The translations under genes and the position numbers were made by a program. Of a stretch of 64,000 bases of DNA, positions 21,686 through 35,725 are shown piece by piece. The stretch's first letter is position 1, and the number at the start of each line of letters is the position of its first letter. Below the pieces are notes generated by a model that was not told the origin of the DNA, ran no database searches, and worked only from the letters and a program-made list of their open reading frames with translations. Origin of the DNA: Clostridiaceae bacterium (GTDB lineage: Bacteria; Bacillota; Clostridia; Lachnospirales; Lachnospiraceae); assembly GCA_902363735.1 (NCBI GenBank), contig CABJBA010000010.1, positions 162,508 to 226,507 of the forward strand, in the 5' to 3' direction.

Positions 21686-22393
21686 TTAAAGCAGCGCCCG
21701 GATCACTCCTTCCACGGTTTTTTCTTCTACTTCTATGGTAAATATAGATTCCTGAATGTCCTGTAAGTAATGGGCATCGGAATTGGTAATAATCTGGCAA
21801 CTCTCCAGATATGGATTTGCCTTTTTAAGCTCCAAAAGCTTGTGTGTATCTTTCACCTCTGCCGTCTGAAACTGGCTGTCAGGGGGAACAAAACCCAAGT
21901 TGGAAATCAGACTGTTTGACGCCTTTTCTATATGGGCCGGAAACATGACACCTTCAAAGGACCGTACCAGTTCCCACAAATTGTCAAAGGATATCTGAGT
22001 GCTGTTAATAAGAAGATTGGGTACCGTTCCACAGGGCAAATCTTCCTTATTATATACCTGCTGCCTGCCAAATATTTCCTCCCTGTTGGGAAAGGGAATC
22101 AGCCGCCCGTACACATATTCATCAAACTTCATAGCCTTTTCAAGGTTGGGAAATAAGCATACCGCATGAACCTCTTCCAAGGTACAGATCTCCATTCCGG
22201 GCAAAAAAAGTATCCCATATTCTTTGGCAAAATATTCTGCAGCCGGGCAATTCTTACAGGAGTTATGATCCGTCAGGGCGATTACATCAAGGCCTTTTAA
22301 AGCCGCCATTGCGGCGATATTAGCCGGTGTCATATCCTCATTCCCGCACGGTGATAAGCAGGAATGAATATGAAGGTCATAAAACAGTTTCAT
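21686..22393 (-). CDS. PHP-domain metal-dependent phosphoesterase
   Basis: A 235-aa cytoplasmic protein with PHP motifs: DLHIHSCLSPCG, DVIALTDHNSC, FLPGMEICTLEEVHAV, FPAHIEKAS and ITNSDAHYL. The His/Asp set for three metals is intact. PHP proteins outside DNA polymerase hydrolyse phosphate esters such as histidinol phosphate or nucleotides. The start ATG at 22393 is one base after the stop of the DRTGG gene, so translation is coupled. Its place in the Fe-S/ATPase operon suggests a signalling role, which is inference. Confidence 0.85.
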   Translation of the reverse strand: MKLFYDLHIHSCLSPCGNEDMTPANIAAMAALKGLDVIALTDHNSCKNCPAAEYFAKEYGILFLPGMEICTLEEVHAVCLFPNLEKAMKFDEYVYGRLIPFPNREEIFGRQQVYNKEDLPCGTVPNLLINSTQISFDNLWELVRSFEGVMFPAHIEKASNSLISNLGFVPPDSQFQTAEVKDTHKLLELKKANPYLESCQIITNSDAHYLQDIQESIFTIEVEEKTVEGVIRALL

Positions 22394-22394
22394 A

Positions 22395-22727
22395 TCAGGG
22401 CAGCCTTTGCCGGACCATATAAGCGGCCTCAAAAACAGGCAGTTCCGTTTTCATCACCGTGATTCCCTGGTTCTCCGCCTTTTTCAAAGCCACTTCATCA
22501 AGAACCATGCCCTCTGCCATAACCAGACAGGAGGCGCCTGCAAGGGCCGCAACTGCAAGGGTATTCATATTTCCCATGACCGTAACCCACACACACCCCT
22601 CTGGCGCCCTCCCCATGGCAATGCTTAAGAGATCGCAGCAAAAAGGCTTTGTAATCTCCCTGTCAAGGACATCTCCTTTGTTTATCAATTCAAATAATCC
22701 GCTGTCAATCAGTTCCCTTACCGTCAT
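22395..22727 (-). CDS. DRTGG-domain protein (operon copy 2)
   Basis: A 110-aa protein built almost only of a DRTGG-type domain (MTVRELIDSGLFELINKGDV ... VTVMGNMNTLAVAALAGASCLVMAEG ... AENQGITVMKTEL). DRTGG domains occur with CBS domains and in phosphotransacetylase, where they are thought to bind regulatory ligands. The start at 22727 (MTVREL) overlaps the end of the Fe-S protein gene by 23 bp. A related domain is encoded at the head of the same operon (24657-25007). Confidence 0.75.
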   Translation of the reverse strand: MTVRELIDSGLFELINKGDVLDREITKPFCCDLLSIAMGRAPEGCVWVTVMGNMNTLAVAALAGASCLVMAEGMVLDEVALKKAENQGITVMKTELPVFEAAYMVRQRLP

Positions 22728-24117
22728 TGCCCTTTCTCCCCTTTTTCCGGTCCAGCAAAGTGATCTCATCAGAAATCCTCTGTATATATTTTGTCAGGAC
22801 CTTAAACTTCTCATAGCTTTCCCTGTCTCCCTCCACAATGTCAGCCGCCAGCCTGGAAACCTCCTCTGACAGCTTGTGCACATTGTTTCTTAAAAAATAA
22901 ATGCAGTCTGATTCCTCGGCCTCTCCCCTTACAATGTCTTCTGCCAGAGCCTTGCAGGATGGAGCGCCGCAGGAGCCGCAGTCCAGACCGGGCAGCTTCT
23001 TTAAAATCCGCTCTGCCTGGTTTAAGCGCACAAAACTTTCCATCATGGTATCGCCCAGATGGAATACAGGCTCATATTGAACCTGTCTGGTCCATTTAAC
23101 CAGAGCCTCTGATCCCATCTTCATGTGGCTTCTGGCCACAGGCATGTATTTGCGCAGACGTTTTAATTTCACCTCCGCCACATAGGGGTTTTCCACGGTG
23201 AGGACTCCGCCGACACAGCCTCCGCTGCAGGCGTTTAACTCCACAAATTTTAAGTTTGTAAACTTCTGATCCTCCATATCCTCCAAAACCCTAATAACAT
23301 TTTCAATTCCATCAGCAGCCAGATAATCCTCTGTAAAAAGCCCGCTGGCCTCTCCTCCGCTTCGTCCCCAGCTAATACCGATCTTTCCGGAACTTCCAAG
23401 TTCAGGCGGGTCTTCTCCCACGGCCTTCATGCAGGAAAGAAGCTGGGGGTAAATGTCTTTTATTGCCAGGACCTTATCCAACTCGCTGCGATCCGTTCCC
23501 AGAGGAGACTTGGCATAAGTCACCTTGGAAGGGCAGGGTGAGATAAATATGATTCCTATTTCCCCCCGTTCCAGCCCGGTCTTTTCCATTGCTTTTTGGA
23601 CTGCAAGGATAGCAGCCACCTCCACCGGGGGATTTAAAGGCAGAAGATTGGGGATTAAATTGGGAAACTTTGCCCGGATCAGGCGCACCACCGATGGACA
23701 TGCCGTGCTGATGACCGGAAGACGTTCCGGATTTTTACTTAAGTATTCCCTGCTGGCCTCGCTGACCAACTCAGCCGCAGCACTCACTTCAAATATATCA
23801 TCAAAGCCCATTAACAGCAAGGCATTTAAAACAATATTCACATCATCCAGATTGTTGAACTGACTGTAAAGAGAAGGGGCTGGAAGAGCTACCGTATATT
23901 TATAAGGCTTTATATCTTCCATCCTGTCATAGACCGAAAGCTTTGCATGGTGGGGACAGACCCGTATGCATTCTCCACAGTCAATGCAGAATTTATTATT
24001 GATCTGTGCCTTACCGTTTCTCACCCGGATGGCCTGGGTAGGGCACCGCTTGATGCAATTGATGCAGCCCATACAAAGGTCTGGATCAAGTCTTACCGAA
24101 TGATAAAATTTATCCAC
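22705..24117 (-). CDS. Divergent [FeFe]-hydrogenase-like Fe-S protein (putative sensor)
   Basis: A 470-aa protein. Residues ~12-57 form two [4Fe-4S] ferredoxin motifs (CMGCINCIKRCP, CIDCGECIRVCP). The middle is a hydrogenase large-subunit-like domain with variant active-site motifs: L1 is STACPSV, L2 is ISPCPSK, L3 is ELNACSGGCVGG. Cysteines for the cubane remain, but the proton-relay Cys before the ligand is Ala. The C terminus adds a further Fe-S motif (LDCGSCGAPSC ... SDC). Such proteins are thought to sense H2 or redox state, not turn it over. The GTG start at 24117 has GAGGTG upstream; longer ATG starts at 24135 and 24198 run through the hairpin repeats. It is flanked by an anti-sigma-type ATPase gene and a DRTGG gene. 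Confidence 0.85.
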   Translation of the reverse strand: MDKFYHSVRLDPDLCMGCINCIKRCPTQAIRVRNGKAQINNKFCIDCGECIRVCPHHAKLSVYDRMEDIKPYKYTVALPAPSLYSQFNNLDDVNIVLNALLLMGFDDIFEVSAAAELVSEASREYLSKNPERLPVISTACPSVVRLIRAKFPNLIPNLLPLNPPVEVAAILAVQKAMEKTGLERGEIGIIFISPCPSKVTYAKSPLGTDRSELDKVLAIKDIYPQLLSCMKAVGEDPPELGSSGKIGISWGRSGGEASGLFTEDYLAADGIENVIRVLEDMEDQKFTNLKFVELNACSGGCVGGVLTVENPYVAEVKLKRLRKYMPVARSHMKMGSEALVKWTRQVQYEPVFHLGDTMMESFVRLNQAERILKKLPGLDCGSCGAPSCKALAEDIVRGEAEESDCIYFLRNNVHKLSEEVSRLAADIVEGDRESYEKFKVLTKYIQRISDEITLLDRKKGRKGNDGKGTD

Positions 24118-24129
24118 CTTTTCACCTCG

Positions 24130-24219
24130 TTTCATAGTACCGCCCATGCTTTTTGGGCATAATGGTATACCCGCAGGGTGTTTCATAGTACTGCCCATGC
24201 TTTCTGGGCATAATGGTAT
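24130..24219 (-). repeat. Tandem 39-bp hairpin repeat, two copies
   Basis: Copies at 24130-24168 and 24181-24219 match at 37 of 39 positions with a period of 51. Each contains a hairpin on the minus-strand RNA (TGCCCA or GCCCA, 6-7 nt loop, TGGGC). They lie between the ATPase stop and the ribosome-binding site of the Fe-S protein gene, so they form paired stem-loops in the intercistronic RNA. Function unknown; an mRNA-processing or translational-control role is possible. Confidence 0.85.
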
Positions 24220-24234
24220 GTTCCTGCGTTAAGC

Positions 24235-24657
24235 TCACAAGTTTACCGCCATCCGGATGGTGGTTCCTTTATCTAAAACCGTATTAATTTCCATTTCATC
24301 TGAATACCGTTTCATATTGGGAAGGCCCATACCTGCTCCGAATCCCAGGGAGCGTACAGCATCGGGGGCTGTAGAATATCCTGCCTGCATGGCCAGTTCC
24401 ACATCGGGTATTCCAGGGCCTACATCAGCCAGGATCATCTCGATCCTCTCCGTGCTCACATTGACTGTAATATCTCCTCCCCGGGCATGAATAACCATAT
24501 TGATCTCTCCCTCATACATGGCAATTGCTACCTTACGGATTGCTTCCGGAACTACCCCCATACTCTTTAACTTGCTTTTCACGTCACTGCTGGCTTCTCC
24601 TGCTCTGGTAAAATCCTCAGGAGATATTTTATATTGAAATGTGATCATGTCCTCCAT
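24235..24657 (-). CDS. Anti-sigma/RsbT-type ATP-binding protein (GHKL)
   Basis: A 140-aa single-domain ATPase of the RsbW/RsbT/SpoIIAB type: N-box AMYEGEINMVIHA, G1 box LADVGPGIPD, G2 region LGFGAGMGLPNMKRY, G3 GTTIRM. Such proteins phosphorylate Ser/Thr on partner proteins or bind sigma factors. No anti-anti-sigma (STAS) gene is next to it; the Fe-S sensor follows. The ATG at 24657 overlaps the preceding stop codon by one base and has GGAGGT upstream. A phosphatase of the matching SpoIIE type is encoded at 32569-33750. Confidence 0.85.
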   Translation of the reverse strand: MEDMITFQYKISPEDFTRAGEASSDVKSKLKSMGVVPEAIRKVAIAMYEGEINMVIHARGGDITVNVSTERIEMILADVGPGIPDVELAMQAGYSTAPDAVRSLGFGAGMGLPNMKRYSDEMEINTVLDKGTTIRMAVNL

Positions 24658-25007
24658 CACACTCTACCTCCACGTAAACCTGCCTGATAAAGCATTCCGC
24701 AGGCCGAAAACATCCGGTGGTCTGTGGAGAGGATAACCAAACCTCTCTCTTCCGCCATTTTAAGAATGGACTCATCCGGCTTTTTCCCCCTGACAAAGAC
24801 AATGCAGGCAATATCCAGCATCTCTGCCGTCCGGATGACCTGGGGATTACAGAGGCCGGTGAGAAGGACCGAGTGGTCTTTGGAAAAAGCCAGTACATCG
24901 CTCATCATATCCGATCCGCAGGCGCTTCGGATCATATCTTCTAAATTATTTTCTCCAACCAGAACCCGTGCCTCCAGTATGTCTCTTACATCTTTTATAG
25001 TCATCAT
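24657..25007 (-). CDS. DRTGG-domain protein (operon copy 1)
   Basis: A 116-aa protein of a single DRTGG-type domain (VRDILEARVLVGENNLEDM ... SVLLTGLCNPQVIRTAEMLDIACIVFVRGKKPDE ... GLVILSTDHRMF). It is the first gene of the operon DRTGG-ATPase-Fe-S protein-DRTGG-PHP and is transcribed away from the hydrogenase operon. A GGAGAG site precedes the start. It is probably a ligand-binding regulatory module; the ligand is unknown. Confidence 0.75.
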   Translation of the reverse strand: MMTIKDVRDILEARVLVGENNLEDMIRSACGSDMMSDVLAFSKDHSVLLTGLCNPQVIRTAEMLDIACIVFVRGKKPDESILKMAEERGLVILSTDHRMFSACGMLYQAGLRGGRV

Positions 25008-25163
25008 ACCGCTCTCCTCTGCTTTTTACCTTACGGTTTATGTGTTTACTGACAATATTCATAATTATATCATAGTTTTTTTAGTCAGCATAGGAATATA
25101 AGTGCATAACTCTGTTATTTTTTTGTCATTACTCATCAAACTATGGATTTTTTATCAATAACA

Positions 25164-25172
25164 TGGTAGAAT
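25164..25172 (+). promoter_or_regulatory. Extended -10 promoter of the hydrogenase operon
   Basis: TGGTAGAAT (TG 25164-25165, TAGAAT 25167-25172) lies 41 bp before the NuoE-like ATG in the divergent intergenic region. No clear -35 and no good Rex-type palindrome were found here. Confidence 0.5.
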
Positions 25173-25212
25173 ATCATATACATTGCATAAACATTTTTAA
25201 GGAGGCTATCAA

Positions 25213-25707
25213 ATGGCTTGTAAAAAACAAGGTGTCCAGTTTAACGGCACAAAGGAGCAAGAAGAAGCTTTAAAAGAAGCAATTGCTCTGCTTAACGACA
25301 CAAAGGGATCTCTTATGCCTATCATGCAGAAGGCACAGGGGATCTACGGTTATCTTCCCATCGAAGTTCAAACCATGATTTCTGATGAAACAGGAATTCC
25401 ACTGGAAAAAATTTACGGTGTAGCAACTTTTTATTCTCAGTTTGCACTTCAGCCAAAGGGCAAATACCAGGTATCCGTTTGTCTGGGAACTGCCTGCTAT
25501 GTAAAAGGCTCCGGGGACATCTTCCACAAGATTGAAGACATCCTTAAAATCACCAACGGACAATGCACACCTGACGGCAAATTTTCCCTTGACTCCTGCC
25601 GCTGTGTGGGGGCCTGCGGCCTTGCACCCGTCATGATGGTAAACAGTGATGTTTACGGAAGGCTTGCCCCTGAAGATGTTCCGGGTATTCTTGCCAAGTA
25701 TGAATAG
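25213..25707 (+). CDS. hydC: Bifurcating hydrogenase subunit HydC (NuoE-like, [2Fe-2S])
   Basis: A 164-aa electron-transfer subunit of the NADH/ferredoxin-dependent hydrogenase. The thioredoxin-like [2Fe-2S] fold is shown by GVATFYSQF, CLGTACYVKGS (two ligands) and CRCVGACGLAPVM (two ligands). It is the first gene of an operon with an ATPase gene, a ferredoxin-like protein, HydB and HydA, all on the plus strand with short gaps. AAGGAGG precedes the start. Confidence 0.93.
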   Translation: MACKKQGVQFNGTKEQEEALKEAIALLNDTKGSLMPIMQKAQGIYGYLPIEVQTMISDETGIPLEKIYGVATFYSQFALQPKGKYQVSVCLGTACYVKGSGDIFHKIEDILKITNGQCTPDGKFSLDSCRCVGACGLAPVMMVNSDVYGRLAPEDVPGILAKYE

Positions 25708-25719
25708 GACTTTTGGTAT

Positions 25720-26277
25720 ATGATGACAGAGATTTCTTTAAATATTTTGGATGTGGCGGAGAATTCCACGCAGGCGGGGGCCTCACTGGTCACCATTTCC
25801 GTTGCCGCAGATATTGCAGCAGACTTACTGACAGTCACCATTAAAGACAACGGCTGCGGTATGACGAAGGAACTGAAAGAACAGGTAACTGATCCTTTTT
25901 TTACCACCCGAAAGACCAGAAAAGTAGGCCTTGGCATCCCATTTTTTAAATATGCGGCGGAAAGCACGGGAGGCAGTTTTTCCATTGAATCGGAGCCTGG
26001 AAGGGGAACTGTGGTCACGGCTGTATTCGGTCTGTCCCACATTGACCGAATGCCTCTTGGAGATATTAACAACACCATTGAAACATTGATCACTTGTCAT
26101 CCAAATACAGATTTTCTCTACATTTACCGTTATAATGACAGTTCTTTTGAACTGGATACCAGAAGCTTCCGGGAAATACTGGGAGAAATCCCCTTTGACA
26201 TGCCAGAGGTGAGGACTTACATAAATGAATATCTCAGTGAAAACAAATCAGAGACAGACGGTGGCGCGGCCCTGTAG
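25720..26277 (+). CDS. Histidine-kinase-like ATP-binding protein inside the hydrogenase operon
   Basis: A 185-aa soluble protein with a HATPase domain in residues 1-115: N-box LNILDVAENSTQAGA, G1 IKDNGCGMTKE, G2 KVGLGIPFFKYAAESTGG, then GRGTVV. No histidine-phosphotransfer domain or sensor is attached. The C-terminal 70 residues are unassigned. It sits 12 bp after hydC and 24 bp before the next Fe-S gene, so it is coexpressed with the hydrogenase. It may be a protein kinase acting on the complex or its regulators; this is inference. Confidence 0.8.
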   Translation: MMTEISLNILDVAENSTQAGASLVTISVAADIAADLLTVTIKDNGCGMTKELKEQVTDPFFTTRKTRKVGLGIPFFKYAAESTGGSFSIESEPGRGTVVTAVFGLSHIDRMPLGDINNTIETLITCHPNTDFLYIYRYNDSSFELDTRSFREILGEIPFDMPEVRTYINEYLSENKSETDGGAAL

Positions 26278-26301
26278 GCCCGTCAGGATTGGAGGAATAA
26301 C

Positions 26302-26679
26302 ATGAAAACTCTTGAAGAATTAAAAGCAATTCGGGAGAAGATGCAAAATCAGGTAACCATGCGGGAAGAAGACCATGGACGCACGCGTGTTTTAGTGGGA
26401 ATGGCAACCTGTGGCATTGCCAGCGGTGCAAGACCTGTTATTAATAAATTATCAGACCTGGTTCAGGAAAATCATATGAACGACCGGTTTTCTGTCATAC
26501 AGACAGGATGTATCGGTTTATGCCAGTACGAGCCTATTGTAGAGATCTTAGAGCCAGGAAAGGATAAGGTCACTTATATTAAGATGACACCTGAAAAGGC
26601 AGAAGAAGTTTACAAAGAGCATCTGCTGGGAGGACACATTCTTCAAAACTACACGTTGGCTTCTGCTGACATCAAATAA
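26302..26679 (+). CDS. Thioredoxin-like [2Fe-2S] ferredoxin protein
   Basis: A 125-aa protein with an N-terminal helix and a thioredoxin-like ferredoxin fold: ligands in MATCGIASGA and QTGCIGLCQYEP. This matches the stand-alone version of the N-terminal domain of HydB. Only Cys at four positions (one plus one, then two) are seen when both segments are counted loosely: the first segment has a single Cys, so cluster binding is likely weak or altered. It lies 12 bp before hydB with GGAGGAAT upstream. Confidence 0.8.
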   Translation: MKTLEELKAIREKMQNQVTMREEDHGRTRVLVGMATCGIASGARPVINKLSDLVQENHMNDRFSVIQTGCIGLCQYEPIVEILEPGKDKVTYIKMTPEKAEEVYKEHLLGGHILQNYTLASADIK

Positions 26680-26691
26680 GGAGGAAACAAG

Positions 26692-28479
26692 ATGTATCGT
26701 TCACATGTATTGGTTTGCGGCGGAACAGGATGTACTTCCTCCGGATGCCAGCAGATTATGGTCAGATTAAAAGATGAGTTAAAGAAACAGGATTTAGCAG
26801 AAGAAATATCTGTAGTACAGACAGGCTGCCACGGCCTTTGCGCATTGGGCCCCATTATGATCGTCTATCCCGATGCAGCCTTTTATTCCATGGTAAAGGA
26901 AGATAACATTCCTGAAATTGTATCCGAGCACTTATTAAAAGGACGTCCTGTAGAACGTCTGCTTTACGATGAGACAGTCACTCCTGCCGGAATCAAGTCC
27001 TTAAGTGATACAGACTTCTATAAAAAGCAGCACCGGGTGGCTCTTCGCAACTGCGGTGTTATAAATCCGGAAAATATCGAAGAATATATCGGCACCAATG
27101 GATATCAGGCTCTTGGAAAAGTTCTTACAGAAATGACTCCTGATGATGTCATTAAGACTTTGTTAGACAGCGGTTTAAGGGGCCGAGGCGGAGCAGGTTT
27201 TCCTACAGGCTTAAAATGGAAGCTGGCAAAGCAGAATGATGCGGACCAGAAATACGTCTGCTGTAATGCAGACGAAGGTGACCCAGGTGCATTTATGGAC
27301 CGTTCCGTTTTAGAAGGCGATCCTCATGCCCTTTTGGAGGCCATGACCATTGCAGGCTATGCCATCGGTGCTTCCCAAGGTTTTATTTACGTCCGTGCGG
27401 AGTATCCCATTGCTGTGGAACGTCTGAAGCTGGCCATCGCACAGGCAAGAGAGATGGAGCTCTTAGGCGAGGATATCTTTGGCAGCGGCTTCTCCTTTGA
27501 TATTGATCTTCGTTTAGGTGCAGGCGCATTTGTCTGCGGCGAAGAAACGGCCCTTATGGTTTCCATCGAAGGTAACCGGGGGGAGCCAAGACCCCGTCCC
27601 CCGTTTCCGGCTCAGAAAGGTCTCTTTGGCAAACCAACTATCTTAAATAACGTGGAAACCTACGCCAATATCCCTCAGATTATCTTAAACGGTTCCGATT
27701 GGTTTGCTTCTATGGGTACGGAAAAATCCAAGGGAACAAAAGTATTTGCTTTAGGCGGAAAAATTCACAACACCGGACTGGTGGAGGTTCCCATGGGAAC
27801 CACTCTCCGTGAAATCATCGAAGAGATCGGCGGCGGCATTCCAAACGGCAAAAAGTTTAAGGCGGCACAGACCGGCGGACCTTCCGGCGGCTGTATTCCG
27901 GCAGAGCATTATGATATCCCCATTGACTATGACAACCTCCTTTCCATCGGTTCCATGATGGGCTCCGGCGGTCTGATCGTTATGGATGAAACCGACTGTA
28001 TGGTGGATATTGCCAAGTTCTTCCTGGAATTTACCGTAGAAGAATCCTGCGGCAAATGTACTCCATGCCGGATCGGAACCAAGCGTATGCTGGAAGTCCT
28101 TGAAAAGATCACCAACGGACAGGCAAAGCTGGAGGATTTGGACCACTTAGAAGAGCTGTGCTACTACATAAAGGAAAACTCGGCCTGCGGCTTAGGACAG
28201 ACAGCTCCAAACCCGGTTCTATCCACCCTGAAATTCTTCCGGGATGAGTACAATTCCCATATTATTGACAAAACCTGCCCGGCTGGCGTCTGCAAGGCCC
28301 TGCTCTCCTATCACATTGATGCTGACAAGTGCAAGGGCTGTACTATCTGCGCCAGAAACTGTCCGGTTAACGCAATCTCCGGTTCTGTCAAGAACCCCCA
28401 CGTCATTGATCCTGAAACATGTATCAAGTGCGGTGTATGTATGGAGAAATGCAAATTTGACGCTGTTTATAAGAGATAA
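26692..28479 (+). CDS. hydB: Bifurcating hydrogenase subunit HydB (NuoF-like)
   Basis: A 595-aa flavoprotein that exchanges electrons with NAD(H) and probably houses the bifurcation site. Domains in order: N-terminal thioredoxin-like [2Fe-2S] (CGGTGCTSSGC, TGCHGLCALGP), FMN/NADH-binding NuoF core (LRGRGGAGFPTGLKWK, CNADEGDPGAFMDR, GAGAFVCGEETAL), a [4Fe-4S] site (ESCGKCTPCRIG), and two C-terminal ferredoxin clusters (CKGCTICARNCP, CIKCGVCMEKCK). The length is typical of HydB in trimeric hydrogenases. AAGGAGG precedes the start. Confidence 0.95.
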   Translation: MYRSHVLVCGGTGCTSSGCQQIMVRLKDELKKQDLAEEISVVQTGCHGLCALGPIMIVYPDAAFYSMVKEDNIPEIVSEHLLKGRPVERLLYDETVTPAGIKSLSDTDFYKKQHRVALRNCGVINPENIEEYIGTNGYQALGKVLTEMTPDDVIKTLLDSGLRGRGGAGFPTGLKWKLAKQNDADQKYVCCNADEGDPGAFMDRSVLEGDPHALLEAMTIAGYAIGASQGFIYVRAEYPIAVERLKLAIAQAREMELLGEDIFGSGFSFDIDLRLGAGAFVCGEETALMVSIEGNRGEPRPRPPFPAQKGLFGKPTILNNVETYANIPQIILNGSDWFASMGTEKSKGTKVFALGGKIHNTGLVEVPMGTTLREIIEEIGGGIPNGKKFKAAQTGGPSGGCIPAEHYDIPIDYDNLLSIGSMMGSGGLIVMDETDCMVDIAKFFLEFTVEESCGKCTPCRIGTKRMLEVLEKITNGQAKLEDLDHLEELCYYIKENSACGLGQTAPNPVLSTLKFFRDEYNSHIIDKTCPAGVCKALLSYHIDADKCKGCTICARNCPVNAISGSVKNPHVIDPETCIKCGVCMEKCKFDAVYKR

Positions 28480-28496
28480 TGGAGGAAACTTGTATC

Positions 28497-30242
28497 ATGG
28501 AGAATATTACAGTAAAAATCAATGGTATGGATGTAAGTGCTCCCGCAGGCTCCACCATTTTAGAGGCTGCCAGACTTGCACATGTTGATATACCGACTTT
28601 ATGCTTTTTAAAAGATATTAACGAAATCGCTGCCTGCCGGATCTGTACGGTAGAAGTAGGCGGAGGAAAGCTGGCTCCAGCCTGTGTATACCCTATTAAT
28701 CCGGGCATGGAGATAAAGACCAACACACCAAAGGTGAGGGACTACAGAAAGAAAACGCTTCAATTAATTCTTTCCAACCACAACCGCTCCTGTTTATCCT
28801 GCATCCGCAGCGGTGAATGCGAGCTTCAGACCATGTGTAAGGAAATGGGCGTGGATATAGAAGATTACTACGACGGCGCTAAGACACCTTCTGAGTTGGA
28901 TGAAAGCGCTGTTCATATGGTGCGGGACAACAGCAAGTGTATTCTGTGCCGCCGCTGCACCGCTGTCTGTGAAAAGACTCAGGAAATCGGTGTAATCGGA
29001 CCCAATGACCGGGGATTTGCCACATTCATCGGCTCTGCCTTTGATATGGGACTTGGCGAAACAAGCTGCGTCTCCTGCGGCCAGTGTATTGCCGTCTGTC
29101 CTACGGGAGCCCTTTATGAAAAGAGCAATGCCGGCGAGATTCTGGCCGCCATTGCAGACCCCGCAAAGCATGTGGTTGTTCAGACCGCTCCTTCTGTCCG
29201 TGCAGGCCTTGGAGAGGAATTTGGTTATCCCATCGGGACCAATACAGAAGGTCAAATGGTAGCCTCCCTCAGAAGGCTTGGCTTTGACAGCGTATTTGAT
29301 ACTAACTTCGGCGCTGACTTAACCATTATGGAAGAAGCCCACGAATTTCTTCACAGAGTACAAAACGGAGGCGTTCTTCCTCTGATCACCTCATGTTCTC
29401 CTGGTTGGGTTAAATACTGCGAGCATTATTTCCCTGATATGACGGAGAACTTATCCTCCTGTAAATCTCCCCAGCAGATGTTCGGGGCAGTTGTCAAATC
29501 CTATTATGCGGAAAAAATGGGCTTAAAACCGGAGGATATCGTATCCGTCAGCGTAATGCCCTGTACTGCCAAGAAATTTGAAGTGGGCAGAGAAGATCAG
29601 GATGCCAACGGTGTTCCGGATGTGGACTATACCTTAACCACCAGAGAACTTGCCAGAATGATCAAACAGGCCGGAATCCGTTTCACCAGCCTTCCGAAAG
29701 AAGACTTTGACACCCCTCTGGGTATCAGTACCGGTGCAGCTACCATTTTTGGCGCTACCGGCGGCGTTATGGAGGCTGCTTTAAGAACTGCAGTGGAGAC
29801 CCTGACCGGAGAAGAACTGGAAAAACCTGACTTTGCCGATGTCCGGGGGACCCAAGGAATTAAAGAAGCTACTTACAATGTAGCTGGCATGGAGGTGAAG
29901 GTAGCAGTCGCCTCCGGTCTTGGCAATGCGAGAGAGCTTCTAAACCGGGTAAAATCCGGGGCTGCAGACTACCATTTTATTGAGATTATGGGTTGCCCAG
30001 GCGGCTGTGTAAACGGAGGCGGTATGCCACAGCAGCCAGGCCATATCCGCAATACAGTTGACATAAAGGTCCTGAGAGCAAAGGTTCTGTATGATGATGA
30101 CGCAGGAAAGACTTTTCGCAAATCTCATGAGAATCCTGCTATCAAAGAATTATATGAAAGTTACCTGGGAGCACCCGGCAGCAAAAGGGCCCATCATCTG
30201 CTTCACACAACTTATGTGAAAAGAGAAATAAACAAAATCTGA
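28497..30242 (+). CDS. hydA: [FeFe] hydrogenase catalytic subunit HydA
   Basis: A 581-aa catalytic subunit producing or oxidising H2. N-terminal [2Fe-2S] domain (INEIAACRICTVEVGG), His-Cys cluster (HNRSCLSCIRSGECELQ), two [4Fe-4S] clusters (CILCRRCTAVCE, CVSCGQCIAVCP), then the H-cluster domain with L1 TSCSPGWVKYCE, L2 MPCTAKKFE and L3 EIMGCPGGCVNGGG. L1 has Ser where many monomeric clostridial enzymes have a second Cys. The start at 28497 is preceded by GGAGGAAAC; an ATG at 28479 overlapping the hydB stop is less likely. Maturation genes hydEFG are not in this window. Confidence 0.96.
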   Translation: MENITVKINGMDVSAPAGSTILEAARLAHVDIPTLCFLKDINEIAACRICTVEVGGGKLAPACVYPINPGMEIKTNTPKVRDYRKKTLQLILSNHNRSCLSCIRSGECELQTMCKEMGVDIEDYYDGAKTPSELDESAVHMVRDNSKCILCRRCTAVCEKTQEIGVIGPNDRGFATFIGSAFDMGLGETSCVSCGQCIAVCPTGALYEKSNAGEILAAIADPAKHVVVQTAPSVRAGLGEEFGYPIGTNTEGQMVASLRRLGFDSVFDTNFGADLTIMEEAHEFLHRVQNGGVLPLITSCSPGWVKYCEHYFPDMTENLSSCKSPQQMFGAVVKSYYAEKMGLKPEDIVSVSVMPCTAKKFEVGREDQDANGVPDVDYTLTTRELARMIKQAGIRFTSLPKEDFDTPLGISTGAATIFGATGGVMEAALRTAVETLTGEELEKPDFADVRGTQGIKEATYNVAGMEVKVAVASGLGNARELLNRVKSGAADYHFIEIMGCPGGCVNGGGMPQQPGHIRNTVDIKVLRAKVLYDDDAGKTFRKSHENPAIKELYESYLGAPGSKRAHHLLHTTYVKREINKI

Positions 30243-30250
30243 TTCATTAA

Positions 30251-30292
30251 AACGCGCCTTTGCCAGATCATAAAACCTGGTAAAGGCGCTTG
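30251..30292. terminator. Hairpin between hydA and bioY (convergent)
   Basis: GCGCCTTTGCCAG (30254-30266) pairs with CTGGTAAAGGCGC (30277-30289). A T tract follows on the minus strand (GTTTTAATG) and a weak one on the plus strand, so it serves the convergent ends. Confidence 0.75.
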
Positions 30293-30298
30293 CTTCAC

Positions 30299-30856
30299 CT
30301 ACAGGAAAGCTTGAATTCCCAACAGATGTTTCCTGAACTTTACTCCAAACAGTATGGCTATAATCATTTTAATCAGATCACCGGGTATAAAGGGAATGAT
30401 TCCGGCAAACATAGCTTCCACAAAATTCATACCAGTCTGGTAAACCAGCCATGCAGTCCCAATTCCATAACAGACCATAGTTCCTGTTATCATTCCGGCA
30501 AGGCATAAATACCATCGGTTTGTGAATCTGTCAATGACTTTCCCTGCAATGATAGCCATAGGAATAAATCCAATTAAGTAGCCTCCTGTCGGACCAAATA
30601 ATTTCCCTGCACCTCCGGAAAACCCCGAAAATACAGGCATGCCTACAAGCCCGATCAGCAGATAAGTCAAATAACTTATTACGGTTCTTTTAGTCCCCAG
30701 AACATACAGAGAAATGTAAATCACCAAATTGGTCAATGAAATCGGTACAGCGCCGATTGGAATTGAACATGGGGCCAGAATACAGATAACTGCTGTCATA
30801 ACACCAGAAGCTGCAAGCATAAAAACAGACGAGTTGTTTTCCCTGACTTTATTCAT
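30299..30856 (-). CDS. bioY: Biotin transporter substrate-binding subunit BioY
   Basis: A 185-aa membrane S-component of an ECF-type biotin importer with about six helices. BioY family signs are ISLTNLVIYISLYVLG, YLLIGLVGMPVFSGFSGGAGKLFGPTGGYLIGF and the C-terminal FIPGDLIKM. It overlaps the end of bioB by 8 bp, so it is cotranscribed with it under BirA control. The ECF energising genes lie elsewhere. Confidence 0.93.
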   Translation of the reverse strand: MNKVRENNSSVFMLAASGVMTAVICILAPCSIPIGAVPISLTNLVIYISLYVLGTKRTVISYLTYLLIGLVGMPVFSGFSGGAGKLFGPTGGYLIGFIPMAIIAGKVIDRFTNRWYLCLAGMITGTMVCYGIGTAWLVYQTGMNFVEAMFAGIIPFIPGDLIKMIIAILFGVKFRKHLLGIQAFL

Positions 30857-31835
30857 ATTCGAATCCCATCTCTCTCAGCATAGTTATATCCTGTTCTATA
30901 CTATTTCCCACTGTTGTAAGCATATTTCCTGTTATTGTAGCATTTACTCCGGAGCGGAAGAGTCTTTTCCCTCCGTCTTTAAAGTATTTCCTTCCTGCTC
31001 CCATGCGAATATAGGCCTGAGGATTCAGATAACGGAACATTGCCGCCGTACGGATAATATCATGTTCAGTCAGAGGTGTCAGATTTTCAAAAGGAGTTCC
31101 TTTAATGGGAATCAGTGCATTAATAGGAATAGATTCAATTTCTAACTCAGATAAGGATAAGGCCATATCTATCCGGTCCTTCCAGGTTTCTCCCATGCCA
31201 ATAATACCACCGGAGCAAATGGATAATCCCGCCGCTCTGGCAGACTTGATTCCTGATATCTTGTCTGAATAAGTATGAGTTGTACATATATGTGGAAAAT
31301 AGCGTTCTGAGGTTTCAATATTCTCATGGTACATCTCAACCCCCACTTCCCTTAACCTGGGAAAAGCCTCTGGTTCCAACAGTCCCAGGGACGCACACAG
31401 CTTAATACTGCATTCCTTATGTAATCTTCGATAGATGTGAATGATCCTGTCCAGATCCTTTCCCTCTACTCTGCGGCCCGCTGTTACAATAGAATATTTA
31501 TGAACACCGGCGGACTCTTTTTCCCTGCAATCGGCTAAAATCTCTTCCTCTTCAACCAAATCATATTCCTCACACCCGGTCCGGTTAAAGGAGGACTGCG
31601 TACAAAACTTGCAGTCCTCACTGCAGCTTCCTGATCTTCCATTGATAATACTGCACAAGTCCACTCTGTTTTTGCATAATGCTTTTCTTATTTCATCAGC
31701 CCCGTCCACCAGATCTTCCAGATTGGCATATTCAAAAAATGAGAGGTCATCTTCTCTTGTAAGACGCTTCCCTTTGATAATTTCCTGCGCAAGCTCTTTC
31801 ATTGTCTTTTCTCTATATGCATCATCAGTAATCAT
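30849..31835 (-). CDS. bioB: Biotin synthase
   Basis: Radical-SAM enzyme (328 aa) inserting sulfur into dethiobiotin. The radical-SAM cluster motif is CSEDCKFCTQ; HENIETSERYFPHICTTHTY, CSGGIIGMGE and NALIPIKGTPFENL are typical of BioB. Two start choices exist; 31835 has AAAGGG at good spacing, while the ATG at 31850 lacks a site. bioA, D and F are not nearby, so the cell may take up dethiobiotin or keep the other genes elsewhere. Confidence 0.93.
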   Translation of the reverse strand: MITDDAYREKTMKELAQEIIKGKRLTREDDLSFFEYANLEDLVDGADEIRKALCKNRVDLCSIINGRSGSCSEDCKFCTQSSFNRTGCEEYDLVEEEEILADCREKESAGVHKYSIVTAGRRVEGKDLDRIIHIYRRLHKECSIKLCASLGLLEPEAFPRLREVGVEMYHENIETSERYFPHICTTHTYSDKISGIKSARAAGLSICSGGIIGMGETWKDRIDMALSLSELEIESIPINALIPIKGTPFENLTPLTEHDIIRTAAMFRYLNPQAYIRMGAGRKYFKDGGKRLFRSGVNATITGNMLTTVGNSIEQDITMLREMGFEYE

Positions 31836-31871
31836 GCATTTCCCTTTCATTTTATCTTACACAATGTCCTT

Positions 31872-31925
31872 ATTATACAAATGTATTTTTGTATTGTCAA
31901 CCTCATTTTTTTATTGGTTAACAAT
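31872..31925 (-). promoter_or_regulatory. bioBY promoter with BirA operator
   Basis: Minus-strand -35 TTGACA (31895-31900), 17-bp spacer, -10 TATAAT (31872-31877). The half-sites TTGTCAAC (31894-31901) and GTTAACAA (31917-31924) are separated by 15 bp, the standard geometry of a BirA box, and overlap the -35. Biotin-loaded BirA would repress bioB-bioY. Confidence 0.85.
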
Positions 31926-32014
31926 ATAAGAATGCCAATGGCTTCAGAAAATCATTTAAGAATTATGCATGGATTACCAAGAAACCTCCATACTAAGACT
32001 GGAGGTGATAAAAC

Positions 32015-32188
32015 ATGAGCCCAAAAGAATTAAACTATATCGAGGACGCTCTCGGACACGAAAAATTTTTAAAAACCCAGTGCCAGGATGCGGCACAGAA
32101 TCTTCAGGACCCTGAATTAAAGGCCTGCGCACAGCAGCTTTTACAAAAGCATCAGCAGATCTTTGATAGTTTCTATAACTTAGTGTAA
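32015..32188 (+). CDS. Small spore-coat-associated protein (57 aa)
   Basis: A 57-aa helical protein (MSPKELNYIEDALGHEKFL ... DPELKACAQQLLQKHQQIFD) with GGAGGTG upstream. It lies 13 bp before a CotF-type coat protein gene and resembles short proteins commonly paired with CotF in Clostridia. It is too short for most gene-finder cut-offs. Probably made in the mother cell during sporulation; no sporulation sigma-factor promoter could be assigned with confidence. Confidence 0.75.
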   Translation: MSPKELNYIEDALGHEKFLKTQCQDAAQNLQDPELKACAQQLLQKHQQIFDSFYNLV

Positions 32189-32201
32189 GGAGGAATCACT
32201 T

Positions 32202-32447
32202 ATGGATGACAAGTGTATTATGGAGAACCTGCTGCACACAGCCAAAGGTGTGTGCAGCTTATATCTGCATGGAACCATTGAGTCCCCTACGATGAACGTG
32301 CATCAGGCATTTGACAGCGCATTAAATGACAGCTTATGCATGCAGGATGACATTTACAAAAAGATGTCCTCAAAGGGATGGTATACCACAGAACCGGCTG
32401 AGCAGCAAAAAATTACCAAAGTAAAAAACCAGTTTGCAGGCATGTAA
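32202..32447 (+). CDS. CotF-family spore coat protein
   Basis: An 81-aa protein with the CotF-type pattern ENLLHTAKGVCSLYLHGTIES ... VHQAFDSALNDSLCMQDDIYKKM ... KGWYTTEPAEQQKI. The fold is a helical bundle. It is the second gene of a two-gene coat operon; AAGGAGG precedes it and a strong terminator follows. This supports an endospore-forming host. Confidence 0.85.
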   Translation: MDDKCIMENLLHTAKGVCSLYLHGTIESPTMNVHQAFDSALNDSLCMQDDIYKKMSSKGWYTTEPAEQQKITKVKNQFAGM

Positions 32448-32451
32448 CTGA

Positions 32452-32500
32452 AAAAAGCTATGGGAATCCTTTACAGAGGGATTTCCCATAGCTTTTTTTG
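32452..32500 (+). terminator. Terminator of the coat-protein operon
   Basis: AAAAAGCTATGGGAAT (32453-32468) pairs with ATTTCCCATAGCTTTTTTT (about 32481-32499) across a short loop; a strong rho-independent terminator. Confidence 0.88.
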
Positions 32501-32568
32501 CTTGATTTACACGGTTTTCTCTGACTGTACCGCTTCCTGCTTGGCGATGTGTATCTTTCAGAACATGC

Positions 32569-33750
32569 TTAATAATAAGTTACTGTAACTTTTTTCCCCA
32601 TCTCTCCTGCGGTTTGCTTTAACTGCTCCACCAGATTCTGCCGGATACCTAAATCAAAGGGCAGTCCCGGATTCTGGTAAGCGATGTTAATGGCTCTTCC
32701 CACATATAAATGAAGCTCCGTACAATCCTCTATGATCATCTTAGCTGCCATGGATGCGCCGTTTGCACGGTCCAGTTCCAGAAAAAATTCTTCCGATACA
32801 GACTCATTCTTTACATAGCTTTTCAAAAGCTGCAGGACCCTGTTTAAGGTTAAGACCCCCTCTGTTACCAACTCAATGCCCTCCATATAAGCAATAGGGG
32901 GAATTTCCGAATCATTGTAATCCAGGGAAACATCCAGCTTCTTTCCGGTTACTCTGGATACAATATTTGCACTGGTTCCTCCGCAGACAATTCTCTTTAC
33001 CCCGTCTTCTCCGGAAAGAAAATCCTTAACAATCCCAATGTCATCCTTTTGGCTCTTAGGAGGCCCTGTCAGCAAGTGGACCGGTTTCCTGTCAATAACC
33101 CGCATAACTGCCACTGTAGTGTCATCTCCCGGCCTGAACTGATAAAGTTCATCGCAGGCTCTGCATAACGCAGAAGCCAGACGGACTGCAGATACGGTCA
33201 GGCGGTACTGCTTTACCGCATAAGCTGCCAAGTCATCCCACTGCCAGCCAAAGTTCAATAGCTGACCGACTCCCGCATGAATGGTTCCATCGCTCATCAG
33301 AATCAGAGCGTCTCCTTTTTTTACATGAAAACGGTATTCATTGATCTGTTTATCCCGGATGACTCTGGAATTCTTGGGGATAGAAACCAGACTTCCACTG
33401 CGGATAAAAACACATCCCGGATTGTCAAATTCCACGAGGTAGGCTTCCCCGCTGTTAAACACCTGAAGAATACTGAAGGTGGAATAAGCCACCTGACGCA
33501 CCTGACACACCGGAAGAGTCTCCACAATGGTTTCCACGCACTCCTCTAAAGTGGCTCCGTTTAAAAACATGGTTCCCAGGATCTTGGAGGTCATGGTAGC
33601 CAGAATATTGGCCTTTACCCCACTGCCCATGCCGTCGGCAAGGATCAGGATGTGGGAATCACCTGTTTGCAGGATCTCCACCTTGTCTCCGCATAATATT
33701 TCGCTGAATTTATTTAAGCTTTTGTATGCAACATCAACCGTAACTCCCAT
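32569..33750 (-). CDS. SpoIIE/PP2C-type serine/threonine phosphatase
   Basis: A 393-aa protein. Residues ~1-215 form a PP2C-like SpoIIE phosphatase domain: GDKVEILQTGDSHILILADGMGSGVKA with metal-binding Asp residues, LMSDGTIHAG and RPGDDTTVAVMR. The remaining ~180 residues (VNGxx-free, KRIVCGGTSANIVSR) are found in similar clostridial proteins and have no role known to me. The ATG at 33750 overlaps the stop of the PAS-hydrogenase gene by one base, so they are made together. It probably dephosphorylates a target under control of that sensor. It lacks the SpoIIE membrane region, so it is not the sporulation SpoIIE itself. Confidence 0.85.
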   Translation of the reverse strand: MGVTVDVAYKSLNKFSEILCGDKVEILQTGDSHILILADGMGSGVKANILATMTSKILGTMFLNGATLEECVETIVETLPVCQVRQVAYSTFSILQVFNSGEAYLVEFDNPGCVFIRSGSLVSIPKNSRVIRDKQINEYRFHVKKGDALILMSDGTIHAGVGQLLNFGWQWDDLAAYAVKQYRLTVSAVRLASALCRACDELYQFRPGDDTTVAVMRVIDRKPVHLLTGPPKSQKDDIGIVKDFLSGEDGVKRIVCGGTSANIVSRVTGKKLDVSLDYNDSEIPPIAYMEGIELVTEGVLTLNRVLQLLKSYVKNESVSEEFFLELDRANGASMAAKMIIEDCTELHLYVGRAINIAYQNPGLPFDLGIRQNLVEQLKQTAGEMGKKVTVTYY

Positions 33751-35483
33751 TACCTGACCTCGCTTTCGCTTCCCTCTTCCAATAAGGACCGGCAAAGCTT
33801 CGTTAATGTGGTTTTCGTTTCGGCTGTCGTCTCTCCCAGAAGACCGGCAATTTCCTGAGCCACCATCATCTGCTTGCGAATAACCTCCTGGGCCAGTTCA
33901 ATGGTCTCCAGCTTTTTTTCATACTCCTGCCTTGCCTGTTCCTCAGCCTTGGTGATATCAATAAAAGTAGCCAGCACCACATCTTCTTTTCCAATATATA
34001 CAATATTTTGAAGAGTGGAAAAACGGTATTCCCCGTAGGTCACCTTTTTGCCGTGAATATTTTGGTGAGAATTATAAACCCATTGAAAATCAGAAGGGTC
34101 AATCAGCTCATATAAATACATATCCAAAGCTTCCTGCCGGTTCTTTCCAAAATACTTCTCTCCCACTGCAGAATACTCCAGAATTTTCATATCCTTATCT
34201 ACGATCAAAACAATATTGGGAGAGGTTTCCATAACCAGATTGGATAGGGATTCCGCTTTTTCGTTCATAAATGGGATGCACATGTTAAGTTCCGCCTTTT
34301 TCTGGAACACCGCCACCGCCTTTTCCCTGCATGTGGAATAGCCGCAGGCACCGCAGTTTAGCTCATCCTCAGGCCTGGTCTTTCCAATCTGCTTTAATAT
34401 GTTCTGAATCTGAACCTCCGTAGGCATACGTTCCCTGGGAGCCCGGTCTGTAAACCGCTTCTCAAAGGAAATGGCTTCCAGAACTTCATGAACCTCTTCT
34501 TCAGGCACCGGTTCTCTTTTTATGGACTCTTCCATATCCAGCTTTACCTTAAACCGGGATATACCTCCCGTGTCCACTGCCGGGCCCTTAATACATCCTC
34601 CGGAGCACATGTTCATCTCAATAAAACACCCCCGGATATCTCCCCTCTCCATGCTCTCGCACAGATCAATGCAATTTCTGGAGCCATGAACATAAAACTT
34701 CCGGTATCCATCCTTTTCCTTTTGCCCGGCCAGAACAGAATTCACCACTCCATTAGTGACCGGGTAAAGTCGGTTAACTCTGGGATCAAAGCTGGCAAAG
34801 GGAATATCTTCACAGTCCTCTATGGAAATATCCTCCTCAGAAAGCCACTGCAAAACATCATTGAAGTTTAAGACAGCGTCAATGTACTCACCGTGGCGTA
34901 CATCCTTAGACTCCTTTTTCTTAGCAATACAGGGGCCTAAAAATACCACTTTCACCTCAGGCCCCATCTCCTCTTTGATCAGTTTTCCGTGGGCAATCAT
35001 GGGAGATACCACCGGAGCCATATAAGGGATCAGCCTGGGATAGTAAATTTCAATCAGGTCATTGACGCTGGGGCAGCAGGTGGTAATGATGTTTTCCATC
35101 TCCCCCTCTTTTAAAAGTCTGGCATACTCCGCCGTGACAAGAGCCGCACCCTCCGCAGTTTCCCGGACATCGGCAAAGCCCAGATTCCTTAAAGCTCCAT
35201 TTACCTGACCAATGGACTTATAAGGCAGCAGACCCATATAGGAGGGTGCCAGAGAAACCACCACTGGAGCACCTGACTTTATATAGCCTTTGACCAGCTC
35301 CAAATCGCTGATCAGGGTTTTGGCGGACTGAGGACAGACCTTCATGCATTTTCCGCATAAAATACACTTATCCTCCATGATCTCAGCCCGCTCATCTTTA
35401 ATCATGACTGCCTTGACTTCACAGTTGCGGACACATTTATAACAGTGTTTGCATTTGATGGACTTGAAATCAATGATCCCCAT
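33750..35483 (-). CDS. PAS-containing divergent [FeFe] hydrogenase (putative sensory HydS)
   Basis: A 577-aa protein: two ferredoxin clusters at the N terminus (CKHCYKCVRNCE, CILCGKCMKVCP), an H-cluster-like domain (L1 ITTCCPSV, L2 LGPCIAKK, L3 EMNMCSGGCIKG), an extra Fe-S motif (LNCGACGYSTC), a PAS domain (~residues 415-520, ETSPNIVLIVDKDMKIL) and a C-terminal coiled coil. The cubane cysteines are kept, while the Met of L2 and the Trp of L1 are changed. This architecture fits the group C (PAS) sensory hydrogenases described in Firmicutes, and the adjacent phosphatase fits too. GGAGG precedes the start. Confidence 0.88.
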   Translation of the reverse strand: MGIIDFKSIKCKHCYKCVRNCEVKAVMIKDERAEIMEDKCILCGKCMKVCPQSAKTLISDLELVKGYIKSGAPVVVSLAPSYMGLLPYKSIGQVNGALRNLGFADVRETAEGAALVTAEYARLLKEGEMENIITTCCPSVNDLIEIYYPRLIPYMAPVVSPMIAHGKLIKEEMGPEVKVVFLGPCIAKKKESKDVRHGEYIDAVLNFNDVLQWLSEEDISIEDCEDIPFASFDPRVNRLYPVTNGVVNSVLAGQKEKDGYRKFYVHGSRNCIDLCESMERGDIRGCFIEMNMCSGGCIKGPAVDTGGISRFKVKLDMEESIKREPVPEEEVHEVLEAISFEKRFTDRAPRERMPTEVQIQNILKQIGKTRPEDELNCGACGYSTCREKAVAVFQKKAELNMCIPFMNEKAESLSNLVMETSPNIVLIVDKDMKILEYSAVGEKYFGKNRQEALDMYLYELIDPSDFQWVYNSHQNIHGKKVTYGEYRFSTLQNIVYIGKEDVVLATFIDITKAEEQARQEYEKKLETIELAQEVIRKQMMVAQEIAGLLGETTAETKTTLTKLCRSLLEEGSESEVR

Positions 35484-35485
35484 GA

Positions 35486-35725
35486 TTATAACCTCCCTGT
35501 GATTTCTTTTTCAAAAAACTCCTTTGTATCCTCCGGCTTTAAAGAATAAACCTCCCCATCCAAAGTAATACAGACGCCGCTTACGCAGTTGCCGCTACAA
35601 AATGCTCCGTTTAAATCGACCTGGCCTTCAAGGCCATTCTCCTTTACAAGGCCCTGAAGCTGGGTAATAATTTCTCTGGATCCCTTTAGGTGACATGCAC
35701 TTCCAATACAGATTGTTACTCTCAT
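35486..35725 (-). CDS. Small thioredoxin-like [2Fe-2S] protein
   Basis: A 79-aa protein equal to the cluster-binding core of NuoE: ligands in CIGSACHLKGS and GAFCSGNCVSGVC. It lies 2 bp before the PAS-hydrogenase gene in the same operon and probably passes electrons to it. CGGAGGG precedes the start; the promoter with a Rex-like palindrome lies just upstream. Confidence 0.85.
   Translation of the reverse strand: MRVTICIGSACHLKGSREIITQLQGLVKENGLEGQVDLNGAFCSGNCVSGVCITLDGEVYSLKPEDTKEFFEKEITGRL

Follow-up and report, generated by a model that had tools for sequence, protein, structure and literature searches.

A 64,000-nucleotide stretch of the Clostridiaceae bacterium assembly GCA_902363735.1 (contig CABJBA010000010.1), here called the window and supplying all coordinates below, carries two modules built on [FeFe]-hydrogenase homologues around one hyd operon, which is predicted to encode a bifurcating-type hydrogenase. 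An earlier note on this DNA had drawn attention to the arrangement, and the observation is confirmed here. We read the region as two independent putative H2- or redox-sensing modules beside the hydrogenase, forming a two-arm scheme, and give this reading a probability of roughly 0.4; control of the hyd genes by H2 or redox state through two separate, sometimes converging arms is the interpretation that we consider most likely.

Two modules around one hyd operon

Module 1 occupies the reverse strand (25007-21686) and reads, in order of transcription, DRTGG1, a SpoIIAB/RsbT-like ATPase, a group D-like hydrogenase homologue (HydS(D)), DRTGG2 and a PHP-domain protein. The hyd operon runs divergently from it on the forward strand (25213-30242), where NuoE-like, NuoF-like and group A genes lie in one run, and module 2 follows on the reverse strand (35725-32569) in the order [2Fe-2S] protein, PAS-containing group C-like hydrogenase homologue (HydS(C)), SpoIIE-type phosphatase (Table 1). 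All genes named in the earlier note were found at or near the places it gave and with the expected domains, including the second module and the full HydCBA operon, which proved to be a five-gene run; its description of module 1 was right in content but not in extent, since DRTGG2 and the PHP gene lie beyond the start it gave (22705).

A conserved cassette built on the group D protein

Presence and absence were counted at chosen score cut-offs in samples of 196 Clostridia and 150 Lachnospiraceae genomes. Among the Clostridia, the group D protein was found in 99 genomes, DRTGG1 in 100 (98 of them strong matches), the ATPase in 98 and HydB in 159. The association of the cassette genes is not due to chance because 97 of the 99 group D genomes also have DRTGG1 and 97 have the ATPase; in the two genomes outside this count the group D gene sits at a contig end. 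The genes are also physically linked, with 94 group D-DRTGG1 pairs no more than 3 kb apart on the same strand (100 group D loci). HydB accompanies the group D protein in 97/99 Clostridia and 35/35 Lachnospiraceae genomes and lies within 15 kb in at least 62 of the 100 loci; in four others it is farther off on the contig, and 34 have no HydB on the contig among the matches listed.

The window comes from a Lacrimispora-like Lachnospiraceae genome: homologues of its group D protein in named Lacrimispora are 83-87% identical, and those of one other cluster 95%. Thirty-eight of 42 loci related to it hold all ten genes, that is, the cassette divergent from HydC-HATPase-HydD-HydB-HydA. Of the four exceptions, one ends before PHP (L025), one before HydA (L042), one is a piece without the hyd operon (L037), and one has neither DRTGG2 nor PHP on a piece that continues past the place where they would be (L039). 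In a wider set, 52 region loci hold a group D gene, and the scan detected all five cassette genes in 39 of them; among the other 13, three hold the missing DRTGG on inspection (L110, L119 and L177), some end at a contig or region edge, and three have other genes at the PHP place (L113, L114 and L116), L113 also at the DRTGG2 place. Because of these gaps we distinguish a firm core, DRTGG1-ATPase-HydS(D), from DRTGG2 and PHP, which are usual but dispensable. Two loci stand apart: L125 (G145:C82) has a DRTGG1-ATPase pair without a hydrogenase, flanked by genes that on inspection are CoA-disulfide-reductase-like and methionine sulfoxide reductase-like, and L175 (6624-7423; G061:C120) has a DRTGG1 copy with no ATPase match nearby and adjoining short HydA-matching fragments, which suggests that a second hyd/cassette locus has decayed here.

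The putative signalling proteins keep their motifs, in counts that include many close relatives. Both N-box residues (Glu and Asn) and the G1 and G2 box positions of the ATPase are present in 103/103 sequences, D33, M35 and S36 of DRTGG1 in 100/100 distinct sequences, the D and S of the DRTGG2 DLLS motif in 78/79, and nine PHP positions that we presume to be metal ligands in 85-86/87. The ATPase gene overlaps DRTGG1 by four bases; its product scores 59.3 bits against TIGR01925, under the model cut-off of 135, and has the SpoIIAB chains 1til and 1l0o as its best PDB relatives, RsbW being a further one; it is a probable Ser/Thr protein kinase. DRTGG2, whose gene overlaps the 3' end of the group D hydrogenase gene, is weak by Pfam alone, and its identity is supported by the conserved D-L-L-S motif and the fixed gene place. 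The nearest solved structures to the DRTGG proteins are AF_1212 and pyrophosphatase regulatory domains (3l2b, 3l31), all with low scores, and these weak matches leave a nucleotide-binding role as open as a phospho-acceptor role.

An alternative interpretation is that the cassette controls the activity or assembly of HydABC and not transcription, with the ATPase, DRTGG and PHP proteins as redox-gated or nucleotide-dependent regulators. In its favour, we found no DNA-binding protein among the cassette genes, the HATPase gene is retained in most hyd operons seen beside it, and pyrophosphatases, to which the window DRTGG proteins have their weak likeness, carry DRTGG domains in their regulatory parts. 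We nonetheless consider this unlikely, as the cassette persists, with its order intact, where the hydABC genes lie elsewhere (L103-L107, L112 and L115), and 62 HydB-positive genomes lack the group D protein, so that HydABC, if active there as we assume, presumably works alone. Its order is likewise intact in five further loci (L122, L136-L138 and L194), in which it interrupts the hyd operon and separates hydC from the HATPase gene.

Active sites and class of the two hydrogenase homologues

The four cysteines that we take to bind the H-cluster are present in 77/77 aligned group D sequences, window protein included, and in 31/31 aligned group C sequences, sigma-54 fusions included (see below), in agreement with the earlier claim that both window proteins keep them; each has four of four. 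In group D, the proton-transfer cysteine (C299, CpI numbering) is replaced by Ala in 70/77 sequences (A139 in the window), Ser or Thr takes the M353 position in 76/77 (window Ser), and the M497 position is Asn in 44/77 and Leu in 14/77 (window Asn). The proton-transfer position of group C is Cys in 10/31 and Ala in 15/31 sequences, and Cys in the window; residue numbers follow the relevant passages of PMC8163306 and PMC10055695. The claim that L1 and L2 are altered in both proteins therefore stands for the group D protein (TACP and SPC) and for L2 of the group C protein (GPC), but not for its L1 (TTCCP), in which the proton-transfer cysteine is retained.

The group D-like protein consists of an N-terminal 2x[4Fe-4S] region, an H-domain and a C-terminal Cx2Cx4Cx16C iron-sulphur (FeS) domain (window C380, C383, C388 and C405), of which the first three cysteines occur in 77/77 sequences and the fourth is invariant in 15 aligned rows; no PAS domain was found in it by Pfam scan. 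In a 78-row tree, groups D, C, A and B and the sigma-54 fusions each formed one group: the cassette hydrogenases came together in 23 rows (support 100/100), separate from the other three groups, with a group C clade at 98/95, a HydA clade at 100/100, and group C joined to the sigma-54 fusions at 100/95. The group D (M2e)-like label is given on sequence features: ligand cysteines kept, proton-transfer cysteine replaced, a C-terminal FeS domain and no PAS. The group C (M2f) protein has its PAS domain after the H-domain and FeS domain, and an adjoining SpoIIE-type phosphatase.

These data also bear on the interpretation that the group D protein works as a minor hydrogenase for H2 uptake or evolution and that its neighbours serve its maturation or turnover. 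All its cysteine ligands are conserved, and TamHydS turns over H2 reversibly according to the part of PMC8163306 that describes it, but loss of the proton-transfer cysteine in most sequences, and neighbours of signalling type that are not known maturation proteins, make this improbable.

The modules are largely independent but cluster in Lachnospiraceae

HydS(C) is encoded in 63/196 and the SpoIIE in 56/196 Clostridia genomes, and 53/56 SpoIIE loci (one per genome) lie no more than 500 bases from HydS(C) on the same strand; in the window the phosphatase gene directly follows the hydrogenase gene. Nine HydS(C) genomes gave no SpoIIE match at the cut-off; a more divergent SpoIIE adjoins HydS(C) in four of them, and the other five have a sigma-54 fusion in its stead. 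The earlier statement that group C hydrogenases neighbour phosphatases is thus borne out, and these counts, with those for HydB above, agree with its picture of a bifurcating hydrogenase surrounded by two putative sensor hydrogenases that each have a signalling partner.

Across the 196 Clostridia, 42 genomes have both modules, 57 only the group D and 21 only the group C module (odds 2.7, P = 0.002; all such P values treat genomes as independent, and shared ancestry makes them non-independent). Among HydB-positive Clostridia there was no clear association (odds 1.6, P = 0.18), and only 1/56 SpoIIE loci is near a group D gene. In Lachnospiraceae the pattern is tighter: group D occurs in 35, group C in 32 and both in 25 of the 150 genomes, and of the 74 that are HydB-positive, 25 have both, 10 only D, 5 only C and 34 neither (odds 17, P = 2.9e-7). 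The two lie on one contig in 18 of the 25 genomes with both, within 70 kb in 16 and within 16 kb in 10. HydS(D) is at most 10 kb from the HydB place used in 30/35 loci, 27 of them divergent, and HydS(C) in 12/35. In four loci (L177, L180, L182 and L183) HydS(C)-SpoIIE directly follows HydA and the group D cassette points the opposite way, with two or three other open reading frames (ORFs) in the divergent gap of the last three.

The earlier note had proposed that the ATPase, as kinase, and SpoIIE, as phosphatase, act oppositely on one shared target, for instance a DRTGG or PHP protein, in a single phospho-switch. The Lachnospiraceae association and clustering are consistent with this, as are L176 (G298), where seven sensor genes run in one direction (DRTGG1-ATPase-HydS(D)-DRTGG2-PHP-HydS(C)-SpoIIE), and L135 (G102), where the SpoIIE gene directly precedes DRTGG1. 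As a general rule, however, the model fails: 63/98 ATPase genomes lack the group C-linked SpoIIE, and the lack of a clear association among HydB-positive Clostridia and the rarity of SpoIIE loci near a group D gene also speak against it. DRTGG1 is unlikely to be the general substrate of SpoIIE because 21/56 SpoIIE genomes have no strong DRTGG1 match (two are doubtful, G055 at a contig end and G141 with a weak match). We regard a shared target as unlikely overall.

The modules are, then, largely independent across Clostridia yet co-occur and cluster round one hyd operon in Lachnospiraceae, and because they do so their convergence in that family is possible. A neighbourhood search, which the note had suggested, thus found the expected co-occurrence and clustering in Lachnospiraceae but also modules apart in much of Clostridia (57/99 D without C; 21/63 C without D). 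The note had named independence of the modules from each other and from HydABC as evidence against its model; the former is largely seen in Clostridia, whereas HydB is present in nearly all group D genomes.

Sigma-54 fusions of the group C sensor

In six genomes a group C hydrogenase is fused to a sigma-54 activator (L163-L168, from G043, G062, G099, G042, G025 and G027, respectively); the proteins are 873-881 residues long, with hydrogenase, FeS, PAS, sigma-54 AAA+ and helix-turn-helix domains in the four of the six scanned, and in G025 the fusion is a second group C copy. In five of the six loci the fusion gene immediately precedes hydC, and each of these five has a -24/-12-like site. Four of these sites match at 9 or 10 of 10 positions, lie 31-67 bases ahead of the hydC start as called, and were equalled in 20, 50, 13 and 0 of 2000 dinucleotide shuffles. 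The fifth (L165), where the called start is too early and which the shuffle statistic does not cover, matches at 8 of 10 positions, 31 bases ahead of the likely in-frame start. We caution that 9-of-10 sites also occur in 4/10 control loci and that L163 and L165 are near-identical relatives. In L164 a further 10-of-10 site precedes the gene for the fusion protein.

The place of the fusions immediately before hydC and the -24/-12-like sites there support a transcriptional output for the group C class, and for that class the part of the earlier suggestion that concerns control of gene expression gains ground. The window has no such fusion, and no 9- or 10-of-10 site was found within its positions 18000-40000; what its proteins share with these activators is the hydrogenase H-domain as putative sensory input. 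Hydrogenase domains in sigma-54 activators are already listed as an enhancer-binding protein architecture in the relevant part of PMC6615313, and that of PMC4324140 describes Swol_1040, a histidine kinase that includes a hydrogenase domain.

A two-arm scheme and its weak points

In the first arm, H2 or redox state would be read at the H-cluster of the PAS-less group D protein and relayed by way of its C-terminal [4Fe-4S] domain to the SpoIIAB/RsbT-like kinase of the cassette, which would modify or bind a DRTGG partner, with the invariant Ser of D-x-M-S as candidate site; the PHP protein, where present, would reset the signal or turn over DRTGG-bound nucleotide, and the output would be hydABC expression or activity. 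In the second arm, the group C PAS sensor would gate the SpoIIE serine phosphatase, acting on a substrate of its own. A more specific and doubtful version is a partner-switching system free of STAS proteins, in which a hydrogenase-gated SpoIIAB/RsbT-like kinase would phosphorylate the invariant Ser of the paired DRTGG proteins, PHP would be the opposing phosphatase or nucleotide hydrolase, and in Lachnospiraceae the cassette would converge with group C-SpoIIE on the divergent hyd promoter.

Several points weigh against the two-arm scheme. Neither a sigma factor nor a STAS antagonist was found in the cassette, which also lacks a recognisable DNA-binding protein; by Pfam, no STAS domain occurs in ten window proteins (the cassette, HydC, HATPase, HydD, SpoIIE and group C proteins), a scan that left out the [2Fe-2S] gene, HydB, HydA and the rest of the genome. 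The invariant DRTGG Ser may be structural, and GHKL proteins also serve as non-kinase ATPases. PHP is dispensable, as L113, L114 and L116 demonstrate, and L113 and L039 do without DRTGG2 too. No HydB is listed within 15 kb of 38/100 group D loci, the listing being a lower bound. Lastly, TamHydS catalyses H2 turnover (PMC8163306, in the part concerned), so a slow catalytic role is possible.

Relation to known systems

Both sensor classes, their closeness to bifurcating hydrogenases and the neighbouring kinase or phosphatase are already in print, as far as the relevant sections of PMC3561251, PMC8163306 and PMC6776011 go. A table in PMC3561251 (2012) places group D beside A1 and group C beside A8 bifurcating hydrogenases in A. 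thermocellus and C. phytofermentans, and the same paper notes that the genes for sensor and bifurcating enzyme often have a histidine/serine kinase gene between them; in R. albus, according to passages of PMC6776011, a cluster with 111-fold regulation is linked to a group C sensor and to a putative phosphatase; a summary in PMC11837493 gives the effects of hfsB (PAS hydrogenase) and hfsC (serine phosphatase) in Thermoanaerobacterium; and PMC8163306 poses the signalling route of PAS-less group D proteins as an open question. New here are the integrity of the group D cassette away from hydABC, the invariance of its motifs, the clustering in Lachnospiraceae and the promoter sites found with the fusions. 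Searches of open-licence literature found no paper that connects DRTGG with hydrogenase in the sense of a sensor cassette, the one paper listed for both being a mutant study of D. vulgaris.

The window group D protein resembles TamHydS, Cthe_0335 and Cphy_3798 in its PAS-less H-domain, C-terminal Cx2Cx4Cx16C domain, replaced C299 and M353, kinase-like ATPase neighbour and nearby bifurcating hydrogenase; the DRTGG pair and PHP are not described in the relevant sections of the same sources (PMC8163306, PMC3561251). TamHydS differs in having Leu at the M497 position and, in its published description, an AraC regulator beside it, of which none was noticed in the window. The group C protein shares PAS and C-terminal FeS domains with TmHydS, R. 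albus HydS and Thermoanaerobacterium HfsB, and the adjoining serine phosphatase with the latter two (excerpts of PMC6776011, PMC11837493 and PMC13104023), but keeps the Cys that in TmHydS is Ala (PMC10055695, same limit). Several relatives have a group B hydrogenase gene after SpoIIE (directly after it in L001, L002 and L028); the window, at 30243-32569, has none at that place.

RsbRST and SpoIIAA-SpoIIAB-SpoIIE are partner-switching modules. The window likewise combines, in one region, a SpoIIE phosphatase and a SpoIIAB/RsbT-like GHKL protein with N-box Glu/Asn, G1 and G2 boxes. It differs in that no STAS antagonist or sigma factor was found in either module, DRTGG proteins occupy the place expected of the antagonist, and the ATPase and the window-type SpoIIE are apart in most genomes.

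Features of the region

In 41/42 related loci the hyd operon includes a HydB copy that is 79-93% identical to that of the window. The hyd HATPase has an ENS/AGA motif, which we take to be MutL-like, and is extended at the C-terminus by a further conserved part (HIDRMPLGD, LDTR). Upstream of hydC, Lacrimispora and relatives share a block (ACTATxGATTTTTT...ACATGxTAxAATAT) that resembles a -10 element with a poor -35 and is perhaps activator-dependent. Between hydA and module 2 the window has bioY and bioB (30299-31850) and a pair of small CotF-like ORFs, all named by inspection, which the earlier note did not mention. The predicted structure of the SpoIIE protein has a pLDDT of 83.6; its C-terminal domain (residues ~222-393; 32569-33087) matched no Pfam family in the window protein, is conserved in 21 aligned proteins (motifs GGT, LVTEGVLTL and NPAHQNP-like) and is predicted to be Rossmann-like.

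Table 1. Genes and features of the two modules and the hyd operon, in window positions.
Feature	Position	Strand	Basis
PHP-domain metallo-phosphoesterase	21686-22393	-	PF02811 33.1 bits
DRTGG2, second DRTGG protein	22395-22727	-	PF07085 21.6 bits (cut-off 25.2)
Group D/M2e-like [FeFe]-hydrogenase homologue	22705-24117 (ORF open to 24198)	-	PF02906, PF04060, Fer4
SpoIIAB/RsbW/RsbT-like GHKL ATPase, 141 aa	24235-24660	-	PF13581 39.7 bits
DRTGG1, stand-alone DRTGG domain protein, 116 aa	24657-25007	-	PF07085 38.9 bits
Divergent region common to cassette and hyd operon	25008-25212		Conserved block seen by eye in relatives
HydC, NuoE-like 2Fe-2S	25213-25707	+	PF01257 168 bits
hyd-operon HATPase, GHKL type, ENS motif	25720-26277	+	PF02518 59.6 bits
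HydD-like 2Fe-2S thioredoxin-fold protein	26302-26679	+	PF01257 30.3 bits
HydB, NuoF-like	26692-28479	+	Homology to relatives' hyd operons, not family scan
HydA, predicted group A bifurcating-type catalytic subunit	28479-30242	+	Homology to relatives' hyd operons and tree clade, not family scan
SpoIIE/PP2C serine phosphatase	32569-33750	-	PF07228 60.9 bits; PP2C matches
Group C/M2f-like PAS [FeFe]-hydrogenase homologue, 577 aa	33750-35483	-	PF02906 184.5, PF04060 42.9, PF00989 28.5 bits
Small [2Fe-2S] thioredoxin-like protein, 79 aa, five cysteines	35486-35725	-	ORF; name by inspection, not family-scanned

Implications

Fixed partners with invariant motifs in about half of the 196 Clostridia make the signalling question of group D proteins testable in vitro, and the STAS-free partner-switching cassette, if true, would supply the signal path so far missing for group D sensory hydrogenases. 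Whether sensory hydrogenases control transcription can be addressed simply through the -24/-12-like sites that accompany the group C/sigma-54 fusions ahead of hydC, and the signalling question also bears on the tuning of H2 production in gut and biofuel Clostridia.

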